From Terriglobales bacterium (GTDB lineage: Bacteria; Acidobacteriota; Terriglobia; Terriglobales; Acidobacteriaceae): a stretch of DNA of 44,405 nt. A program made the translations under genes and the position numbers. Shown here piece after piece: positions 33,169 through 41,556 of the stretch. The stretch's first letter is position 1; every line of letters starts with the position of its first letter. The notes under the pieces are model-generated. The model did not search any database. It had not been told where the DNA came from and was given only the letters and a program-made list of their open reading frames with translations. The stretch lies in NCBI GenBank assembly GCA_035651995.1, contig DASRER010000008.1, forward strand, positions 68,065 to 112,469, written 5' to 3'.

Positions 33169-34167
33169 ATGGCGCATCAGGTCCTGATCCCCCGCTCGGA
33201 GCTTCAACCTACGCTGAACCTGCGTCCCATCTCGGACCAGCTGGATCGGCCCTGGTGGAGCACGGTAGGCGAAAACGTTCGCGACGCGCTTTTTCCGCGC
33301 AAGCTGCCACCGTTGCGCCTTACCTCGCGCCCGGTGAAGGTGCGCGACATCTGGGGCGATTACAACTACAAAAAGAAAGCCGGCGTCGGGACGAGCGTTC
33401 TCCACGCCGGCATGATCGGCTTCCTGGTGTGGCTGTCAGTGGCCGCGCCGCGCATCATGGACAAACCAAAACCGACAGAGACGATTACCTGGGTGCCGAG
33501 CGATAACGCCGTGTTTGTCCCCACCAAGCCCGATCCGCGGCCCATGGGCGGCGGCGGTGGTGGCGGCGATCGCGACAAGCTCCAGGCCCCCAAAGGCAAG
33601 CTGCCCAAGGCTGCCATGGAGCAGATCACGCCGCCGGCGATAGTCATCCGCAACGAACACCCCAAGCTCGCGGTTGAGCCAACCGTGGTCCTGCCGCCGA
33701 ACGTGAAGATCGCATCGGCGATGCCGAACCTGGGCGATCCGCTTTCGAAGATGCCCTCGGGCCCGCCGTCGAACGGCGTCGGATCCGGCGGCGGCATCGG
33801 ATCGGGCTCCGGTGGCGGCGTAGGCTCGGGTGAAGGTCCGGGCGTCGGTCCGGGACGCGGCGGCGGGTTTGGCGGCGGCGTGTTCCGCGTAGGCGGGAAC
33901 GTGAGCGCGCCACGCGGACTCTACACGCCCGATCCGGAATATTCGGAAGAGGCGCGCAAGGCCAAGTATCAGGGCACCTGCATGCTGTGGCTCATCGTCG
34001 GTCCTGACGGCCGCCCGCGCGACATCAAGGTTGCCCGCAGCCTGGGCATGGGCCTCGACGAGAAGGCCGTGGAAGCGGTGAGGACCTGGAAGTTTGCGCC
34101 CGCTATGAAAGACGGCACCCCGGTGGCGGTCCAGATCAACGTGGAAGTGAACTTCAGGCTGTACTGA
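33169..34167 (+). CDS. TonB-like energy transducer
   Basis: 332 aa. An N-terminal cytoplasmic part of about 80 residues (longer than in E. coli TonB) precedes a single membrane helix (VLHAGMIGFLVWLSVAAPRIM). A Pro- and then Gly-rich periplasmic region follows (PMGGGGGGGDRDK, later GVGSGGGIGSGSGGGVGSG), and then the TonB C-terminal domain from about 250: YTPDPEYSEEARKAKYQGTCMLWLIVGPDGRPRDIKVARSLGMGLDEKAVEAVRTWKFAPAMKDGTPV. The YSEEARKAKYQG and W.F.PA..DG.PV patterns are those of the TonB_C family. It probably couples proton-motive force to outer membrane receptors; no ExbBD genes are here. Ends with a strong terminator; the iron operon lies convergently just after it. Confidence 0.9.
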   Translation: MAHQVLIPRSELQPTLNLRPISDQLDRPWWSTVGENVRDALFPRKLPPLRLTSRPVKVRDIWGDYNYKKKAGVGTSVLHAGMIGFLVWLSVAAPRIMDKPKPTETITWVPSDNAVFVPTKPDPRPMGGGGGGGDRDKLQAPKGKLPKAAMEQITPPAIVIRNEHPKLAVEPTVVLPPNVKIASAMPNLGDPLSKMPSGPPSNGVGSGGGIGSGSGGGVGSGEGPGVGPGRGGGFGGGVFRVGGNVSAPRGLYTPDPEYSEEARKAKYQGTCMLWLIVGPDGRPRDIKVARSLGMGLDEKAVEAVRTWKFAPAMKDGTPVAVQINVEVNFRLY

Positions 34168-34302: not shown

Positions 34303-35496
34303 TCAGTCCGCCGCCGCGCCGGACTTGCCGCAGCACTCGCCCGGAGGAATCGGGCTGCCGTGCGGGCAGGTCTTGGGATGTCCCAGGAACGAGCAGATGC
34401 GCGTCGTCGCCTCGGCCGACAGGATGTGCTCGAACTTGCACGCCTGCTGCTCGATCTCGGCCTCGCTCTCGATGTGCAGCGTCTCGGTAAACAGGCGCTC
34501 GGCGAGCCGGTGACGGCGGATCACGTCGGCTGCCCGCTGACGCCCGCGCGCGGTGAACTGCATGAACTCGCGGTCGTGGAGCTGCGTGGTGTCCTCGCCG
34601 TGCGTGGGCAGGGTGTCGTGGCAGCGATTGAGCACCAGCTTGTGAGTGTGCTCGTCGAGCTTGTCGTGCGGCAGCAAGTCGACCAGGCCCAGGACCTTCA
34701 TCTTTTCGATGGCGATCTCCAGCGGCAGCGCGCCTTCCACGTGCATGCGTCCCGGCTCGGCCGGTTCGCCGTTCTCCGACAGGATCCACATCTCTTCCAG
34801 GACTTCGTCGAAGAGCTGCTCTTCTTCGATGCTGAAGATTTCCTGCGACGCAATCTTGCCGTGGTGCAGGTCAATGCGCCGGTCGGCCAGCCGGGCGACC
34901 ACCGGGTCGTGCGTGACCATCACGATGGTGCGCCCCTGCTGATGCAGTTCGCGCAGCAGGCGGAGCACGATGTCTTCGTTGGCGCCGTCGAGGTTGCCGG
35001 TGGGTTCGTCGGCGAGGATGATCTTGGGATCGTTGATCAGCGCGCGCGCAATGCACACGCGCTGCTGCTCGCCGCCGGAGAGCTGGCTCGGCACATGCCG
35101 CGCCCGATCGCGCAGCCCGACGCGCTCCAGCGCGCCCATCGCCTCTTGCTCGTCGGCCATGCTGTGGAAGTACTGCGCGAGCATCACGTTTTCCAGCGCG
35201 GTGAGGTAGGGAATCAGGTGAAAGTGCTGGAAGATGAACCCGACCTTTTCTGCGCGCACGCGGTCCAGTTCGGTGGCGCTCAGCGCACCCACGTCCACAC
35301 CGTCAAGCAGGACTTCGCCGCTGGTCGGCCGGTCGAGGCAGCCGATCAGGTTCACCAGCGTGCTCTTGCCCGAGCCGGAAGGGCCCATCACGGCAAGCCA
35401 CTCGCCTGGCTCGACATGCAACGACACGCCGTCGAGCGCGCGCAGCTCGCCCGCCTCGGTCGGATACGCCTTCGTGACTTTGCGAAGCTCGATCAC
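34303..35496 (-). CDS. ABC transporter ATPase fused to a DtxR/MntR-type metal-sensor domain
   Basis: 397 aa, starting at GTG 35496. Residues 1-220 are a complete MacB/LolD-type ATPase: Walker A GPSGSGKS (38-45), Q-loop Q90, signature LSGGEQ (139-144), Walker B IILADE (159-164), H-loop H196. From about 225 the sequence changes to the DtxR family: a winged-helix-like part ([33 protein letters not shown]), an insert rich in His and Cys (about 275-308, six His and one Cys), [13 protein letters not shown], then the metal-binding and dimerisation domain with H329, E333, C353, E356 and H357 at positions matching DtxR H79, E83, C102, E105 and H106; DtxR H98 is E349 here. It ends [13 protein letters not shown]. 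Last gene of the iron operon. Whether the helix-turn-helix still binds DNA is uncertain. Confidence 0.93.
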
Positions 35497-35636
35497 AGCA
35501 GTTGGCAGTTGTCAGTTGCCGGTTGCCAGCCGGGGCACCTAGCGGTTGGCACTTGGCCCCTGACATGAGGAGCCAGACGGCCAAAATGCCAAGTGCTAAG
35601 CGCTAGGCGCCGTCCTGCCGGCAAACCCGCGCCGGA
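35497..35636. repeat. dispersed hairpin repeat inside the iron operon
   Basis: The 140-nt gap between the second permease and the ATPase holds arms 35536-35557 (CACCTAGCGGTTGGCACTTG and two more) and 35588-35609 (GCCAAGTGCTAAGCGCTAGG and two more), pairing at about 18 of 22 positions. It is preceded by repeats of GTTGCC/TTGCCA. Related sequence occurs at 7800-7935 and 14440-14490. Confidence 0.65.
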
Positions 35637-36755
35637 CTACTCTCCCCTTAAGATAACAGCCGGCTGTATGCGCCGCAGCGCCGCCAACGGCGCCAGCGCC
35701 GCGATCAGCGCGACCAATACGCCGCCCGCCAGCACCGGCGGGAACACGCTCAATCGCGGCGAAACAGCCGCCTCAAAGTTCACGCGCCCGATCCACAGGG
35801 CTGCGCCTAGGCCGACTGCGTAACCCACCACGGCGCCCAGCGCGCCGATCAGGCCGGCTTCGGCGGCAAAGAAACCGCGCAACAAGCGCTCGCTGGCGCC
35901 CAGCGCCTTCATCACCGCGAAGTCGCGCCGGCGGTCGAGGACCCAGCTCATCAGCGTGGCCAGGACGCACAGCGTCGCCGTCACGATGACGAGGATTGTC
36001 GCTGCCAGCAGCGCCGCGCGCGTCTTGCCCAGCACGCGGGCCTCGCCTTCCTGAATCTGACGGATGGGGCGGACGTCGGCCTCGGGCAGCGCCTTCTGGA
36101 TGCGCTGCATAGCGGACTCGATTTCCGTGCGGGTCCCGGACACGGCGACTTCGATCGTGCTCGCGCGCACCCCCGTCCATTCTTCCAGGACGTTCAAATT
36201 CACAAAAATCCGGTTGTCCTCCGGCCCACCGGTCTCCACGACCTGCGCCGGGGCGATCTGCCGCGTTTGTCCGCTCGCCTCGAGCGCGAAAGGCGCCCCG
36301 AGTCTCAGATTCAGCGCCTTCATTACACGCTCACCCACCAACGCGCTTACTCCAGGGCCGCCGACACCAGGCGTGAGGGACCACCAGCGATTCATTTCGC
36401 GTGCCTGCGGAAGATTTGTGCCGGCGACGACCACGGATGTGGTTCCTGCCTTGGCTACAACGTACGCAAACGGCACCGCCAGCGCTCCCGGCGCGGCCTT
36501 TTCGACTCGCGCGAGCGCATCATCCGGAAGGGAATTGCCCTCGCGCGCTACGACCACAACGTTGGCACCAAACTTCCGGAACTCCCGCCGCAGCTTCGCC
36601 TCCGAATCGGCGTACAGGTTCAGCAGCGTCGTAGCGACCGCAGCCGCCACCGCCACGGCCACCAACGCCGTCAGTGCGCGTCCGCGGCGCACCAGCGCGG
36701 CGCGCCAGATCAGCCGCAGAAACATGCGCCCGCGCCCGCCGCGCCGCGCGCTCAT
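35637..36755 (-). CDS. FtsX/MacB-type ABC permease (second of two)
   Basis: 372 aa. ATG 36755 overlaps the preceding stop (ATGA). One N-terminal membrane helix (LIWRAALVRRGRALTALVAVAVAAAVATTLLNL), a periplasmic domain of about 190 residues (FGANVVVVAREGNSLP...NRIFVNLNVLEEWTG), then three C-terminal helices: AALLAATILVIVTATLCVLATLMSWVLDRR, FAAEAGLIGALGAVVGYAVGLGAALWI and VFPPVLAGGVLVALIAALAPLAALR. FAVMKALGASERLLRGFFAAEA is the cytoplasmic coupling segment of the FtsX family. It pairs with the adjacent permease as a heterodimer and with the ATPase downstream. In known FTR1-linked ABC systems (Campylobacter Cj1661-1663), such permeases support iron uptake. Confidence 0.92.
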   Translation of the reverse strand: MSARRGGRGRMFLRLIWRAALVRRGRALTALVAVAVAAAVATTLLNLYADSEAKLRREFRKFGANVVVVAREGNSLPDDALARVEKAAPGALAVPFAYVVAKAGTTSVVVAGTNLPQAREMNRWWSLTPGVGGPGVSALVGERVMKALNLRLGAPFALEASGQTRQIAPAQVVETGGPEDNRIFVNLNVLEEWTGVRASTIEVAVSGTRTEIESAMQRIQKALPEADVRPIRQIQEGEARVLGKTRAALLAATILVIVTATLCVLATLMSWVLDRRRDFAVMKALGASERLLRGFFAAEAGLIGALGAVVGYAVGLGAALWIGRVNFEAAVSPRLSVFPPVLAGGVLVALIAALAPLAALRRIQPAVILRGE

Positions 36756-38023
36756 GCGTCACCTCGCAGCACCGGCGCCGCCTCCAGCCGCACCGCGCGC
36801 CGGATCGACGCCGCGCTGCCCGCAAACGTCACGATCGCGGCAACCGCCAGGATGATTGGCGCCAGCACCGGCTGCACCGCGATCGCCGAGGCGAACACCG
36901 TCCTGCCGATCTGCTGCGCCAGCAGCGCGCCCAGCGAGAATCCCAGCGCGCCGCCGATCAAGGCGAGAATGGCAGCCTCGGCGAGGAACAGCGCCGCGAC
37001 CGACGCGCGCCCCGCGCCGAGCGCCTTCATCAATCCGATTTCCTCGCGGCGCTCGAAAATCGTGTTGGCCATGGCCGCCGAAACCGCCAGCGCCGACGCG
37101 ATCAGCGCCGCCACCGCCAGCAGGAGCATGAGGCCCGAGATCCTGCTCAGCACCGTGCCTTCGTTCTGCGCCACCTGCCGGATCTGCTCCGACTTGGCGC
37201 CGGGAATGGCCTCTTCGAGCTGTAAGGCAATCGAATTCGCATACGGCGAGCAGTACCAGCGATCGCGGTCGGCCGGGCTCATGCTGCGCGGATCGCGCCG
37301 CGCGAACGCGTCTTCCGGCTTGGTCATGGCGCTCACCATCACGCGCCGCACCGCGCCGGGACGCGCCGCAATCTTCTGCGCCAGCCCGAGCGGCCCGACG
37401 ATCTGCTGATTCGTCGCCTCGTCGGCCAGCAGCAGGCCCACGACCTTGACTTCCTCGCCATTCACGCGCAGCGTCGCGCCCGGCTCGAAGTTCAGCCGCT
37501 GCGCCAGCGTGTGTCCGATCAGGACTTCGTTCGAATCGTCGCGCGGCCAGTTTCCCGCCACGTGCCACCACGGATTGACCGCCTCCACGCCGGTAGTGAA
37601 CTCCTGCTTGCCGAAGCGGAGCTGTTTTTTGAAATACGTTCCCAGAAGCTGCGCCCCGCCCAGCGGCTTGCCCTCGGCCGACTCGATCTTCACGACCACC
37701 GGCAGCATGGGCGCGTAGCCCACGATGTTGTTCCGCCAGAAGATGCCCTTGATCTTGGTGAGCTCAGCTTCGCTCAGATACGCGCCTGCGTTGGCGGGCT
37801 TCAGGTTGACGCCGCCGACTTCCACCTCGAGCGTGTCGTCGGCGGGATAGACGACCAGGTTCGCGCCGTAGGTCCGCAGCTCACGGTTGATCTTGTCGCC
37901 GATATCGGTCGCGACCGCAATCATGGCCGTGGCCACGGCAACGCCGAGCGCCACCGCCGCGGCGGCCAGCAGCTTGCGCCGCCGCTGGCGCAGAAACGAC
38001 TGATAGAGGAGGCGCGCGAACAT
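36752..38023 (-). CDS. FtsX/MacB-type ABC permease (first of two)
   Basis: 423 aa from ATG 38023, one base after the FTR1 stop; a frame extending to 38092 would run into FTR1 and is rejected. Four-helix FtsX layout: N-terminal helix KLLAAAAVALGVAVATAMIAVATDI, a large periplasmic domain of about 230 residues (INRELRTYGANLVVYPADDT, VLIGHTLAQRLNFEPG), then LMLLLAVAALIASALAVSAAMANTIFERR, AALFLAEAAILALIGGALGFSLGALLA and a final helix. EEIGLMKALGAGRASVAALFLAEAA is the coupling segment. The periplasmic WWHVAGNWPRDDS stretch is Trp/His-rich. Partner of the next permease (4-base overlap). Confidence 0.93.
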   Translation of the reverse strand: MFARLLYQSFLRQRRRKLLAAAAVALGVAVATAMIAVATDIGDKINRELRTYGANLVVYPADDTLEVEVGGVNLKPANAGAYLSEAELTKIKGIFWRNNIVGYAPMLPVVVKIESAEGKPLGGAQLLGTYFKKQLRFGKQEFTTGVEAVNPWWHVAGNWPRDDSNEVLIGHTLAQRLNFEPGATLRVNGEEVKVVGLLLADEATNQQIVGPLGLAQKIAARPGAVRRVMVSAMTKPEDAFARRDPRSMSPADRDRWYCSPYANSIALQLEEAIPGAKSEQIRQVAQNEGTVLSRISGLMLLLAVAALIASALAVSAAMANTIFERREEIGLMKALGAGRASVAALFLAEAAILALIGGALGFSLGALLAQQIGRTVFASAIAVQPVLAPIILAVAAIVTFAGSAASIRRAVRLEAAPVLRGDA

Positions 38024-38024
38024 G

Positions 38025-39275
38025 TCAGTGTGGTTGGAAAGTAGCGACGGCCGCGGCCACGTCGGCCTGCGCGACCACCACCGTGTCGCCATTCACGGTC
38101 GCCTTCAACGGAATGGGATTGCATCCGCCCGGCTGCCCGACCGACTGCGGATTGATGGGCGCGGCGCAGTTCTTGCACACCAGGCCGGTCGTGGTCCGCA
38201 TGAAGCCGACCGGGCCGCAGATTTCGCACGCGTCGAAGATGCTGGCGACCTTGCCGTCGGGCCTGCGATAGAGCAGGAAGCGCACCTCGGCGCCGTTCAC
38301 GTTCGCCTGGTAACGATGCAGGTCGCCGTCAACCAGGTCGCCGACCGGGATCGTCGCCTGGCCGTCCACGAAAGCGATCTCGGTGGCCGCCGGCAGGGAA
38401 CTGGTGCTCTTGGCGTAGATGAACTCGGCCGTCACCAGCACAATGAACAGGAATGAGCTGGCATAGACGCCGGCCATCCACAGCCGCTCGCGCCGCGCGC
38501 TCCACAGCTGCTTGCGCCTCTCCGCTGGCGATACCGGCTCGGCCGTCGGCGCGCGCCGCCGCGTCTCGAACAGGACCATCATTGCCGCCAGCGCCAGGAT
38601 GGTGACAAAGAAGAACAGGTCGTTGCGCACGATCGGGCCGATGAGCGCCATCTCCTGCCGGCTCGACGGCAGCACGCCGTTTTCCGAAAGCTCGTGCAGC
38701 CCCGAGATCAGCAGCTGCCCGGCAACGAAGAAGAGGATCACCGTGGTCACGCGGAAAAATTTCTGCAGGTTGATCCGCACGCTGCCCTTCACGAACATCA
38801 CGCCGAACAGCACAGCCAGCGCCACGCCGGCCATCGTGCCCAGGAAGCTGAGCAGTTCGGCGGTGTTGAACGACACGGCCGAGAGGATCAGCACCGTCTC
38901 GATGCCCTCGCGCACCATCATCAGGAAGACGAAGGCGAACAGGCCCAGCGCGGAGCCCCGGCCGGCCAGCGCGCCAATCTTCTTCTCAATGTCGCCCTTC
39001 AAGTGGCGCGCCGTCTTCATCATGAAGATGATCATGGTGACGACGAAGAGCGCCGCGGCCAGCATGATCCAGCCTTCCACGATGTCCTGGTTCAGGTCCA
39101 GGCGCGAAACGGCGACGGCTGCCGCCACGCTGGCGACGAAGGCCGCGCCGAGCGCCCAATACACCGGTTTGCGGAGTTCGGGCCGGCCGATCTTGGCCAG
39201 GTAGGCGAGCGTGATGCCCACAATCAGGGCCGCTTCCACGCCCTCACGCAAGGTAATGATGAATGCCTGTAGCAT
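38025..39275 (-). CDS. FTR1-family iron permease fused to a DUF2318 Cys-rich domain
   Basis: 416 aa. Residues 1-240 are an FTR1/EfeU-type permease with about seven helices and both REGxE iron motifs, REGVE (10-14) and REGIE (122-126). After a basic linker (RRRAPTAEP...ERRKQLWSARRERLW) comes another helix (MAGVYASSFLFIVLVTAEFIY) and a periplasmic DUF2318-type domain (about 290-416): VRFLLYRRPDGKVASIFDACEICG, GLVCKNCAAPINPQSVG, GGCNPIPL, with C350, C353, C367, C370 and C385. In Campylobacter-type systems FTR1 (Cj1658) and the DUF2318 protein (Cj1660) are separate genes beside p19; here they are one protein and no p19 is adjacent. First gene of the operon, behind a Fur-box-like palindrome. Confidence 0.93.
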   Translation of the reverse strand: MLQAFIITLREGVEAALIVGITLAYLAKIGRPELRKPVYWALGAAFVASVAAAVAVSRLDLNQDIVEGWIMLAAALFVVTMIIFMMKTARHLKGDIEKKIGALAGRGSALGLFAFVFLMMVREGIETVLILSAVSFNTAELLSFLGTMAGVALAVLFGVMFVKGSVRINLQKFFRVTTVILFFVAGQLLISGLHELSENGVLPSSRQEMALIGPIVRNDLFFFVTILALAAMMVLFETRRRAPTAEPVSPAERRKQLWSARRERLWMAGVYASSFLFIVLVTAEFIYAKSTSSLPAATEIAFVDGQATIPVGDLVDGDLHRYQANVNGAEVRFLLYRRPDGKVASIFDACEICGPVGFMRTTTGLVCKNCAAPINPQSVGQPGGCNPIPLKATVNGDTVVVAQADVAAAVATFQPH

Positions 39276-39280
39276 CTCTT

Positions 39281-39323
39281 GGCCTGTGCGGACGCGGGCG
39301 AACCGGCTCCAGGCCGCCCGCGT
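39281..39323 (-). promoter_or_regulatory. hairpin in the 5' leader of the iron operon
   Basis: ACGCGGGCG (39323-39315 on the minus strand) pairs perfectly with CGCCCGCGT (39300-39292) around a 14-nt loop. The loop edge GGCCTG can instead pair with CAGGCC at 39286-39281, right next to the ribosome-binding region of FTR1. Two exclusive folds are possible; a regulatory role is inferred. Confidence 0.35.
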
Positions 39324-39345
39324 TCGCGATTACGGACGGCAGATG

Positions 39346-39374
39346 ATGAAATTGAAAATGAATTTCATTTTCAA
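39346..39374 (-). promoter_or_regulatory. Fur-box-like palindrome overlapping the iron operon promoter
   Basis: 39352-39374 is a perfect 23-bp palindrome: TTGAAAATGAA, T, TTCATTTTCAA. Its inner 19 bp agree with the E. coli Fur box consensus at 14 positions by my count. On the minus strand TTGAAA (39374-39369) and TTTCAT (39351-39346), 17 nt apart, form a usable promoter for FTR1 that the operator would block completely. AT-rich sequence here stands out sharply from the GC-rich surroundings. Confidence 0.72.
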
Positions 39375-39500
39375 CTAGACATGATACGCGCCGCTTGGCC
39401 GCAGCGTCAACGCGCGGCGTCACGCCGCGCCGTGACCCGCCACTTGGTGACCGCGCCCGTTCCGCCACGTCTATCCGGCGTCCAACTGCGAGGTCTCACC

Positions 39501-40808
39501 GTGCGACGTGCCCGCGTATTGCTCCTGCTTCTCGCTGGCTGTGCTGCCAGCGCCGACGCTCAAACCAACGCCATCGATCCAGACCTTGCCGCGGGCTACA
39601 TCCGCGACCTGCAGGCCACGTCTGACGCCGACGCCGGCAGACTCTGGGGCGTGCCGCTGTGCGGGCCGTTCTTCTTTGTTGACCCGGAGACGCATGCCGT
39701 CGTCGCCAACCAGGCTGACGCGGAAGGGAAGCTGAAGCCGCAGGGCAGCGTCTTCACCGGCACGCTGCCGCCGGAAGTCAGCCCGGCCAACACCGCCATC
39801 AACTGGGCGGGCGTCCATTGGACGATGGTGATGTGGCCAGTGAGCCAGTTCCGGCAGCCGCGCCGCCGGTTGCTGGCGCACGAATGCTTCCATCGAATAC
39901 AGGATTCGATCGGCCTCCCCGGCCGGGACGCCATCAACAGCCATCTCGACTCGATGGCGGGACGGACCTGGCTGCAACTCGAGTGGCGTGCGCTGGAGCG
40001 CGCGCTGCGCCAGCGCGGCAAGGACCGCCGCGTGGCAGCCGCCGACGCGCTGCTGTTTCGCGCCTATCGCCGCTCGCTGTTTCCCGACGCAGCCGAGCGC
40101 GAGAACGCGCTGGAGATGAACGAAGGGCTGGCCGAATACACCGGCGTGAAGATCAGCGCCTCGACGCCCGAGGAATTTGCGGTGCTTGCCGACTTCGCGG
40201 TCCGGCAGGGCACAGCGAACGCCACTTTCGTTCGCTCCTTCGCGTACGCGTCCGGACCGGCATACGGTGCGCTGCTCGACCTGAGCGGCAAGCCGTGGCG
40301 CCCCCGCGCCAAAGAGGTGAAGGACCTCGGCCAGCTTCTCGCCGCGGCGTATTCCATTCGCGTGCCATCGCCCGTCACGAAGATGCAAGCGGAAGCCCGC
40401 GCCGCCGAGTACAACGCCGACGAAGTGTTTGCCGCTGAGCAGCGCCGCGACCGTGTGCGCCAGCAGCGTGTGGCCGACGCGCGCAAGAAGCTGATCGATG
40501 GGCCCGTGCTCGTGCTGCCGGTTGGCAACAGCTTCAACTACTCCTACGATCCCAACACCGTGGTCGCCATCGATAGCAACAATACGGTGTATCCACGCTG
40601 CCGCCTCACCGATGAGTGGGGCATCCTCGACGTTTCCGGCAGCGCGCTCCTCATCCGCGACGCCGCCGGCAAGGTGCAGCGCGCCCACGTTCCCGCACCC
40701 GCCTCCGCCGCCGACAGCAAGGGCGACGGTTGGACGCTCACGTTGAATCCTGGCTGGCGCCTGGTCGCGGGCGAGCGCGCGGGAGACTTGACGATTTCGA
40801 AGCAGTAG
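39501..40808 (+). CDS. putative zincin metallopeptidase lipoprotein
   Basis: 435 aa from GTG 39501 (GAGGT 6 nt upstream); the open frame runs further upstream across the Fur-box region but without meaning. The N-terminus VRRARVLLLLLAGCAASADAQ has a good lipobox (LAGC). A zinc motif HECFH lies in RRRLLAHECFHRIQDSIGLP, and downstream ALEMNEGLAEYTGV provides a Glu as possible third ligand, as in gluzincins. Later LTLNPGWRLVAGERAGDL closes a beta-rich C-terminal part. I recognise no characterised family, so substrate is unknown. It is divergent from the iron operon and shares its 225-nt control region, so it may share iron control (inferred). Confidence 0.78.
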   Translation: MRRARVLLLLLAGCAASADAQTNAIDPDLAAGYIRDLQATSDADAGRLWGVPLCGPFFFVDPETHAVVANQADAEGKLKPQGSVFTGTLPPEVSPANTAINWAGVHWTMVMWPVSQFRQPRRRLLAHECFHRIQDSIGLPGRDAINSHLDSMAGRTWLQLEWRALERALRQRGKDRRVAAADALLFRAYRRSLFPDAAERENALEMNEGLAEYTGVKISASTPEEFAVLADFAVRQGTANATFVRSFAYASGPAYGALLDLSGKPWRPRAKEVKDLGQLLAAAYSIRVPSPVTKMQAEARAAEYNADEVFAAEQRRDRVRQQRVADARKKLIDGPVLVLPVGNSFNYSYDPNTVVAIDSNNTVYPRCRLTDEWGILDVSGSALLIRDAAGKVQRAHVPAPASAADSKGDGWTLTLNPGWRLVAGERAGDLTISKQ

Positions 40809-40878: not shown

Positions 40879-41556
40879 ATGGCGCGCGATGGGTTGCACA
40901 ACTTCCGGCTCCCGAAGACTCGTGTGGAGTTTCTCGCTGATGGCGTCTTCGCCATTGTCATGACGCTGCTCGTGCTCGAACTGAAAGTTCCCGAGCTGTC
41001 GCGCTCCGTCACCGCGTCGGAATTGCTGCACGAGCTGAAGCACCTCGGCCCGGTTTTCCTGGCTTTCTGCATCACGTTTATCCTCGCCGGAACGTACTGG
41101 TTCTTTCACAACCTGAGCATGGAGTTTGTGACCCACGCCAACCAGAAGCTGGCATTCATCAACGTCGGATTCTTGTTCTTCATCTCGCTGTTCCCGTTCA
41201 GCGCGGCGCTGCTCGGCCACTTCATCAGGAACCCGGTCGCGCAGGTTGCGTACTTCGGCAATCAGGCTGGGGCTGCCTTATTTCTGGTGCTGAATTGGCG
41301 TTATGCGAGGCGGGCGTCGCTGCTGGGGAAGGTGGATCCGGTCATCGCTGCCAAACTCAACTGGCGCTTGGGCGCATTGGCCATCGCGACGCTCGCCGCC
41401 GCCGTGGTGGCATTCTTCGACCAACGGTTCAGCTTCTGGCTCGTGCCTTTGTCGGTCATGGGCAGTCGCGTGGTGGCGCGGTTTCGCGAAAAAAATGCTA
41501 AACCTGGCTCGCATCATGAGACGGAGACCACCGCCGCGGCGCACAGCGGCGAATAG
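40879..41556 (+). CDS. TMEM175/DUF1211-type membrane protein, probable potassium channel
   Basis: 225 aa. The first helix has the TMEM175 signature RVEFLADGVFAIVMTLLVLELKVPE (R..EF.DGVFAI..TLLVLEL), where family proteins place their potassium filter. About six helices: GPVFLAFCITFILAGTYWFFHN, LAFINVGFLFFISLFPFSAALLGHF, YFGNQAGAALFLVLNW, LGALAIATLAAAVVAFF and FSFWLVPLSVMGSRVV. Bacterial members act as K+ channels (established for a few); here that is by family. It lies 70 nt after the zincin-like gene on the same strand, with no clear ribosome-binding site. The tail is His/Glu-rich (SHHETETTAAAH). Confidence 0.88.
   Translation: MARDGLHNFRLPKTRVEFLADGVFAIVMTLLVLELKVPELSRSVTASELLHELKHLGPVFLAFCITFILAGTYWFFHNLSMEFVTHANQKLAFINVGFLFFISLFPFSAALLGHFIRNPVAQVAYFGNQAGAALFLVLNWRYARRASLLGKVDPVIAAKLNWRLGALAIATLAAAVVAFFDQRFSFWLVPLSVMGSRVVARFREKNAKPGSHHETETTAAAHSGE

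Follow-up and report, generated by a model that had tools for sequence, protein, structure and literature searches.

A stretch of 44,405 nucleotides (hereafter the window, whose positions are used throughout) from a Terriglobales bacterium of the Acidobacteriaceae (GCA_035651995.1, contig DASRER010000008.1) carries a minus-strand operon that consists of a sigma-70-like promoter, a 23-bp inverted repeat and, downstream of these, four genes in the order FTR1-FtrD, permease 1, permease 2, and ATPase-DtxR. The first gene (38025..39275) encodes a 416 amino acid protein in which Pfam identifies both FTR1 (PF03239, E = 2e-38) and the FtrD-like family DUF2318 (PF10080, E = 6e-28). It is followed by the genes of an FtsX/MacB-type permease of 423 amino acids (36752..38023, Pfam MacB_PCD and FtsX), an FtsX-type permease of 372 amino acids (35637..36755, Pfam FtsX), and a 397 amino acid protein (34303-35496) that joins an ATP-binding cassette (ABC) ATPase (ABC_tran, E = 3e-36) to the metal-binding domain of DtxR-type regulators (Fe_dep_repr_C, E = 5e-26, 91 bits at a cut-off of 27). 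Both fusions and the pair of FtsX permeases had been proposed in a first-pass annotation of the sequence and are borne out by the domain searches. The same annotation described all four genes as tightly packed, which holds for the first three (a 1-bp gap between genes 1 and 2 and a 4-bp overlap between genes 2 and 3) but not for the ATPase gene, which is separated from permease 2 by 140 bp with short repeats (35497-35636). The same two reading frames abut or overlap in relatives (e.g., loci L038, L045, and L059).

The ATPase domain (residues 1-220, 34837..35496, minus strand) is MacB/LolD-like with intact Walker A, signature, Walker B and H-loop motifs. Among 98 distinct fused proteins, Walker A, Walker B and the H-loop are present in all 98 and the signature motif in 95. 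In an AlphaFold2 model of the whole protein (mean predicted local distance difference test score, pLDDT, 89.6; predicted template modeling score, pTM, 0.68) the ATPase resembles MacB/MJ0796 (Z 30), and the final strand of the nucleotide-binding domain extends to residue 220, with helix 1 of the DtxR part starting at residue 223. The C-terminal part was folded separately, since matches to the ATPase dominated the initial search by fold. The resulting AlphaFold2 model of the C-terminal 180 residues (40-row alignment, pLDDT 90.3, pTM 0.86) has IdeR and DtxR as its top matches in the PDB (Foldseek E = 9e-8) and aligns to 1g3t with a VIA-align Z of 17.5 and a root-mean-square deviation of 1.9 Å over 133 residues, other structures within 1 being tied. 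Both DtxR domains are present in this model and the SH3 domain is absent. The DtxR part thus comprises more than had been claimed: in addition to the expected Fe_dep_repr_C domain, which binds metal and mediates dimerization (residues 315-384, 34345..34554, minus strand; H329, E333, E349, C353, E356 and H357), it contains a degenerate winged-helix domain (residues 222-314, 34555..34833, minus strand; E231 and E234 in helix 1) that is too diverged to match PF01325.

Three sets of proteins were compared: 39 representatives of the 98 distinct fused proteins, 21 free proteins linked to FeoB-like genes that carry the same DtxR part, and 20 ordinary DtxR proteins from the phylum, which served as the control. 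The DNA-binding domain PF01325 is matched by all 20 controls and by none of the 39 fused proteins at E 0.01; the FeoB-linked proteins yield two weak matches (2/21), and a general winged-helix model (HTH_27) weakly matches one fused protein (1/39) and one FeoB-linked protein (1/21). Similarly, the SH3/FeoA third domain (PF04023) is found in 19 out of 20 controls and in none of the 39 fused proteins. This third domain is not universal among DtxR-family repressors. The recognition helix carries T42 and M44 (IdeR numbering, also below) in every control, a signature that is lost in the fused proteins together with a two-residue deletion in the alignment. The mean net charge of the helix-turn-helix (HTH) region is −7.2 in the 39 fused proteins (−12 to 0) and −6.8 in the 21 FeoB-linked proteins (−11 to −1), compared with +1.1 in the controls (−2 to 6).

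The metal ligands, on the other hand, belong to the best-conserved positions in the domain, and it is the recognition helix that drifts from family to family. E83, C102, E105, and H106 are each present in 39/39 fused proteins and H79 in 35/39, and H98, which is found in 20/20 controls, is replaced by glutamate in 36/39. Position 10 is a glutamate in 36 fused proteins and an aspartate in two, and position 13 is a glutamate in all 39. Both positions are glutamates in 21/21 FeoB-linked proteins and are N/D and K in the controls. They correspond to the ligands Met10 of DtxR and Asp8 of MntR and, with the offset unchanged, to Glu11 of MntR (PMC4805248).

Two further groups of histidines or cysteines were identified. 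A His/Cys-rich wing loop (H-x-H-K...N-x-C-H, 34570..34680, minus strand) is modeled with low confidence; as a text pattern, it is present in 81 of the 84 members of the clade to which the window belongs, in none of the 14 other fused proteins, and was not seen among the 20 ordinary DtxR proteins aligned. The extra cysteines C368-x8-C377-x10-C388-C389 (34330..34395, minus strand; alignment and text pattern) are shared by 83/84 clade members, the sole miss (L110) being cut by a contig end, and by 14/14 other fused proteins.

To follow the fusion through named genomes, the whole ATPase-DtxR protein was used as a query, which identified 103 relatives and led us to reject a one-off gene fusion or an assembly error. 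The best 80 of these, all Acidobacteriota by record title with best-segment identities of 63-72%, were kept. All 80 loci contain the fusion. A survey of gene neighborhoods, as the first-pass annotation had suggested, places the fusion with the FTR1-FtrD operon: the full four-gene order is found in 61/80 loci (in three of these a reading frame is split); the remaining 19 begin at a contig end. In other families of the phylum, the order is present at 14/14 fused loci (L113, L114, L116-L121, L124-L128, and L132) and at four out of five additional fused loci, the second permease of the fifth (L256) being scored as permease-1-like. Starting from FtrD instead, 77 out of 150 relatives contain the domain at 83 places, of which seven weak ones were dropped and 76 kept. 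A DtxR part of the fused kind lies 3.2-4.2 kb from FtrD on the same contig at 51 of these 76 places (fusion was not checked at each; DtxR matches were counted down to E 1e-18, plus three weaker fragments at contig ends).

Not all related operons carry the fusion. The ATPase is unfused in nine operons of one genus (L184-L189 and L191-L193) and in L243, L244, L245, L247, L257, and L259, and no ATPase was seen in the L190 operon. In genome G378 the fused gene lies on a different contig from FTR1-FtrD and the permeases, and in G380 no ATPase is located next to the operon (L249, L250, and L251). At L194-L196, L248, L258, and L262 these parts form a smaller cluster, in which FtrD precedes a single permease gene and the gene of an unfused ATPase and no FTR1 is present within the stretch. 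Plasmid records that match the last 125 residues numbered 62; among the 30 listed, most are annotated as free regulators.

Outside these operons, the same DtxR part occurs in the FeoB-linked proteins, which were drawn mainly from the best-scoring matches and do not constitute a survey. They share the lineage with the fused proteins but are free, bear a C-terminal FeoA domain (21/21) and are mostly encoded next to FeoB-like genes (L115, L123, L140, L152, and others). A FeoB-like gene, recognized by the GNPNVGKS motif and its length and bearing the feoB annotation only in the Pelobacter locus (L152), adjoins the DtxR-FeoA gene in 19/21 loci, the exceptions being L136 and L140. The E-x2-E of helix 1 is present in 21/21 and the cysteine motif in 17/21, and the DtxR-FeoA proteins are perhaps partners of FeoB. 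A degenerate HTH and, in most cases, the motif CPHGxxIPxGxCC were observed beside FeoB-like genes at L112, L115, L122, L123, L129-L131, L133-L135, L137-L139, L141-L143, and L150-L152; the L152 protein is annotated as a transcriptional regulator. In a phylogenetic tree of the DtxR part, the fused and FeoB-linked proteins are separated from the ordinary DtxR proteins (support 100/98). A branch with support 98/70 (not starred) has all fused proteins to the same side, a topology that a single fusion event would fit. On the tree of the operon proteins the fused state has to change twice, as it would by a gain and a loss; its branches are long and it does not include the unfused operons L243, L244, L245, L247, L257, and L259.

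The FTR1 part of the first gene product contains the motifs REGVE and REGIE and the FtrD part contains the cysteine motif CxxC-x13-CxxC-x14-C, all read from the sequence. The first-pass annotation had related the operon to an iron uptake cluster of Campylobacter numbered Cj1658-1663. In PMC6083913, the genes of C. jejuni strain 81-176 are numbered 1649-1656, a Fur box lies upstream, the first six genes keep the same order and similar lengths across 33 species (no acidobacterium is among the names listed there), and CxxC-x13-CxxC-x14/15-C is reported as the DUF2318 motif. The kinship is supported by a common order of FTR1, DUF2318, two permeases and ATPase in the C. jejuni cluster and the E. 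coli plasmid fet-type (P19) cluster (PMC6083913; L241 and L242) and by BLASTP matches of the FTR1 and DUF2318 proteins of L241 to the respective parts of the window protein (E = 5e-17 and 2e-22).

In the P19 cluster, FTR1 and DUF2318 are separate with the iron-transporter (P19) gene between them, a thioredoxin or FMN-binding gene is usually present, and the ATPase carries no fusion, whereas the operon in the window lacks P19, fuses FTR1 to FtrD and carries DtxR on its ATPase. The E. coli and Pasteurella clusters (L241 and L242) encode separate FTR1 (628 and 634 amino acids) and DUF2318 proteins (459 and 465 amino acids), a gene annotated as an iron transporter at the place of P19, and a 231 amino acid ATPase; Fe_dep_repr_C is not one of the 25 families shown for either ATPase. 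The membrane part of the two DUF2318 proteins has no FTR1 match, FTR1 being a separate gene, and the idea that the fusion merely represents the usual DUF2318 architecture was rejected; that membrane part may be a very diverged FTR1-like fold. The absence of an adjacent p19 gene, noted in the first-pass annotation, extends to whole genomes: PF10634 is matched in none of the 150 genomes of the relatives, including that of the window, and among 14 control genomes only in Haloferax. No thioredoxin or FMN-binding gene is located at the end of the cluster, where the operon is followed in the window by a convergent tonB-like gene (the rest of the genome and the relatives were not searched). Because the core is shared but P19 is missing, we call the system a P19-less derivative and not a member of the P19 system.

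The operator TTGAAAATGAAATTCATTTTCAA (39352..39374, minus strand) consists of two 7-1-7 Fur-like boxes that overlap with an offset of 6 bp, and lies 6 bp downstream of the promoter TTGACG-N18-TATCAT (39381..39410, minus strand), which was read from the sequence. The Fur-box-like palindrome of the first-pass annotation is thus real: the pattern is matched without a mismatch on one strand and with 1 mismatch on the other, and 0.00 matches are expected in shuffles. The overlapping arrangement is the layout of the dFUR-box WTGAAAATNATTTTCAW in Desulfovibrio (PMC545781). Fur boxes were scored as matches out of 21 to the E. coli consensus, and a score of at least 15/21 was called a box; the operator scores 17/21, in agreement with the Fur-type layer of promoter control that had been proposed. 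With a looser pattern (at most two mismatches), the genome contains only two sites, the operator and one intergenic site. Besides the operator itself, one more exact site of this 23-bp operator type (L233 5147-5169, G000:C20:186146-186168) lies between two convergent genes and has no evident target.

In the initial set of loci, a box is present upstream of 52/62 fused operons of the window's clade, 1/14 fused operons of other families and 0/11 operons without a visible fusion (eight unfused and three with no ATPase seen), a distribution that by itself would suit an operator read by the fused protein. In 15 further loci, however, the box is missing from the five fused ones and present in the unfused L243 and L259 (16/21 each) and L247 (15); L246, cut by a contig end, has a box of 15/21, and L244, L245, L249, L251, L252, and L257 have none. 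The genomes of L243 and L259 (G305 and G368, one genus) contain no DtxR match at E ≤ 0.001, and the box therefore does not require the fused DtxR part and its likely reader is Fur. The genome of the window contains four Fur-family genes and one other DtxR-like gene. Another operator-like repeat, TTGCAACTnnGTTGCAA or a near-copy, occurs shortly upstream of the FTR1-FtrD start codon in L039, L068, L084, L103, L106, and L107, which are among the ten fused operons of the clade without a Fur-like box, and is perhaps read by a different Fur paralogue.

The genes flanking the operon comprise the convergent gene of a TonB_C protein (33169-34167), a divergent open reading frame that adjoins the operon promoter (39396-40808, no Pfam match at E 0.01) and the gene of a TMEM175-family protein (40879-41556).

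The architecture of the ATPase can be compared with several known systems. MacB, LolCDE and FtsEX share the ATPase fold and the FtsX permeases, but the system in the window is encoded with an iron permease and has an added, putative regulatory domain. The DtxR part shares its two-domain fold and metal ligands with DtxR, IdeR and MntR, and differs in being fused to an ATPase, in the lost DNA-reading signature, in the missing SH3/FeoA domain and in the extra cysteines. The trans-inhibited transporters MetNI and ModABC are ABC importers with C-terminal regulatory domains (PMC10710835), and no DtxR case is named in the available portion of that paper. As in these importers, a C-terminal domain that would be expected to sense the cytosolic substrate is added to the ATPase; here, however, the domain has a DtxR rather than a MetN- or ModC-type fold, the permeases are of the FtsX/MacB type, and inhibition is a prediction. 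The word DtxR occurs zero times in the main text of a survey of Feo evolution (PMC8749426), and neither an ABC-DtxR fusion nor a transporter of this build, which the first-pass annotation had held to be undescribed, was found in the open-licence literature as judged mostly by titles and abstracts.

The retained ligands, the lost DNA-reading signature, the acidic HTH region, the FeoB-linked relatives and the occurrence of the box in genomes without a DtxR match all indirectly favor a DtxR part that would sense metal and act on the protein that carries it. The architecture, its conservation, the intact ATPase motifs, the retained ligands, the lost signature and the operator-like site are directly established, whereas iron transport, the identity of the metal and the direction of the effect (inhibition over activation) are inferred. 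At slightly better than even confidence, we propose an iron importer of the FTR1/FtrD type that lacks P19 and has a metal-sensing regulatory domain on its MacB-like ATPase, through which cytosolic Fe2+ or Mn2+ would slow ATP hydrolysis. The expression level would be set by Fur-type repression. FTR1 with its fused periplasmic FtrD domain would move iron across the inner membrane, driven or reset by a MacB/LolCDE-like ABC pair of two FtsX permeases and one ATPase. Cytosolic Fe2+ (or Mn2+) would bind helix 1 and the dimerization domain of the DtxR-derived sensor, and the metal-loaded sensor would rearrange or dimerize and, via helix 1 directly after the nucleotide-binding domain, slow ATP hydrolysis in a manner analogous to the C-terminal domains of MetN and ModC. 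DtxR undergoes a helix-to-coil change upon metal binding, which would suit a coupling through helix 1.

Several observations weigh against this proposal. The HTH region of IdeR is itself slightly acidic (−2), so that charge alone proves little and is compatible with DNA binding. H79 is replaced by glutamine in 4/39 fused proteins, and the ligand set resembles that of MntR as well as that of DtxR, which makes manganese a possible metal. The orientation of the ATPase relative to the sensor is uncertain (pTM 0.68 for the whole protein, 0.86 for the C-terminal part alone), and the cargo of the ABC part is not established even in Campylobacter (PMC6083913). The DtxR domain is absent from the 15 related operons with an unfused ATPase listed above, and transport is therefore possible without it; this suits an accessory regulator but also a dispensable domain.

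Among the alternative explanations, the DtxR part and its cysteines might accept Fe2+ from the permease and pass it on, or might activate rather than inhibit the ATPase. The conserved extra cysteines, the His/Cys loop and the FeoA domain of all FeoB-linked relatives speak for such a role, FeoA being a protein that works together with FeoB; the ligand set is nevertheless that of a sensor and the domain is located on the ATPase and not on the FTR1 protein, and we regard this explanation as unlikely. Less probable still is a structural relic that serves only dimerization or the stability of the complex and no longer senses metal. Such a domain would agree with the degenerate first DtxR domain and its absence from several related operons, but highly conserved ligands next to a drifting recognition helix are the reverse of what the decay of a metal site would produce. 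Finally, an ATPase that doubles as a transcription factor by still binding DNA and repressing its own operon at 39352-39374 was rejected as the principal explanation and is very improbable: the overall winged-helix fold is kept, the HTH region is conserved inside the clade, and the box was confined to fused operons in the loci first scored, but the recognition signature is lost with the two-residue deletion, the HTH region is acidic with the His/Cys loop in place of the wing in 81/84 proteins, fused operons of other families mostly lack the box (1/14 and 0/5), two genomes of one genus without a DtxR match keep it in unfused operons, and it fits Fur, of which the genome has four family members.

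A broader scenario, for which we see slightly less than an even chance, is that a lineage of DtxR proteins abandoned the regulation of genes and now senses iron directly on transporters, having been attached by a single fusion event to the ABC ATPase of the FTR1/FtrD system and combined with FeoA beside FeoB; it would throttle uptake within seconds, possibly with the help of the cysteine-rich site that ordinary DtxR proteins lack, with Fur as the slower layer. To our knowledge, there are few known examples of iron importers that are directly controlled by cytosolic iron. The joining of a metal sensor to a P19/FtrD-type ATPase in scores of genomes implies that the use of ATP is worth placing under metal control, and ATPase-DtxR is a soluble protein in which such control is directly assayable. 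The fusion suggests a route from repressor to allosteric domain and bears on the DtxR-FeoA genes that are annotated as transcriptional regulators. If the proposal is correct, iron inside the cell would throttle its own uptake directly, in addition to the control of gene expression.

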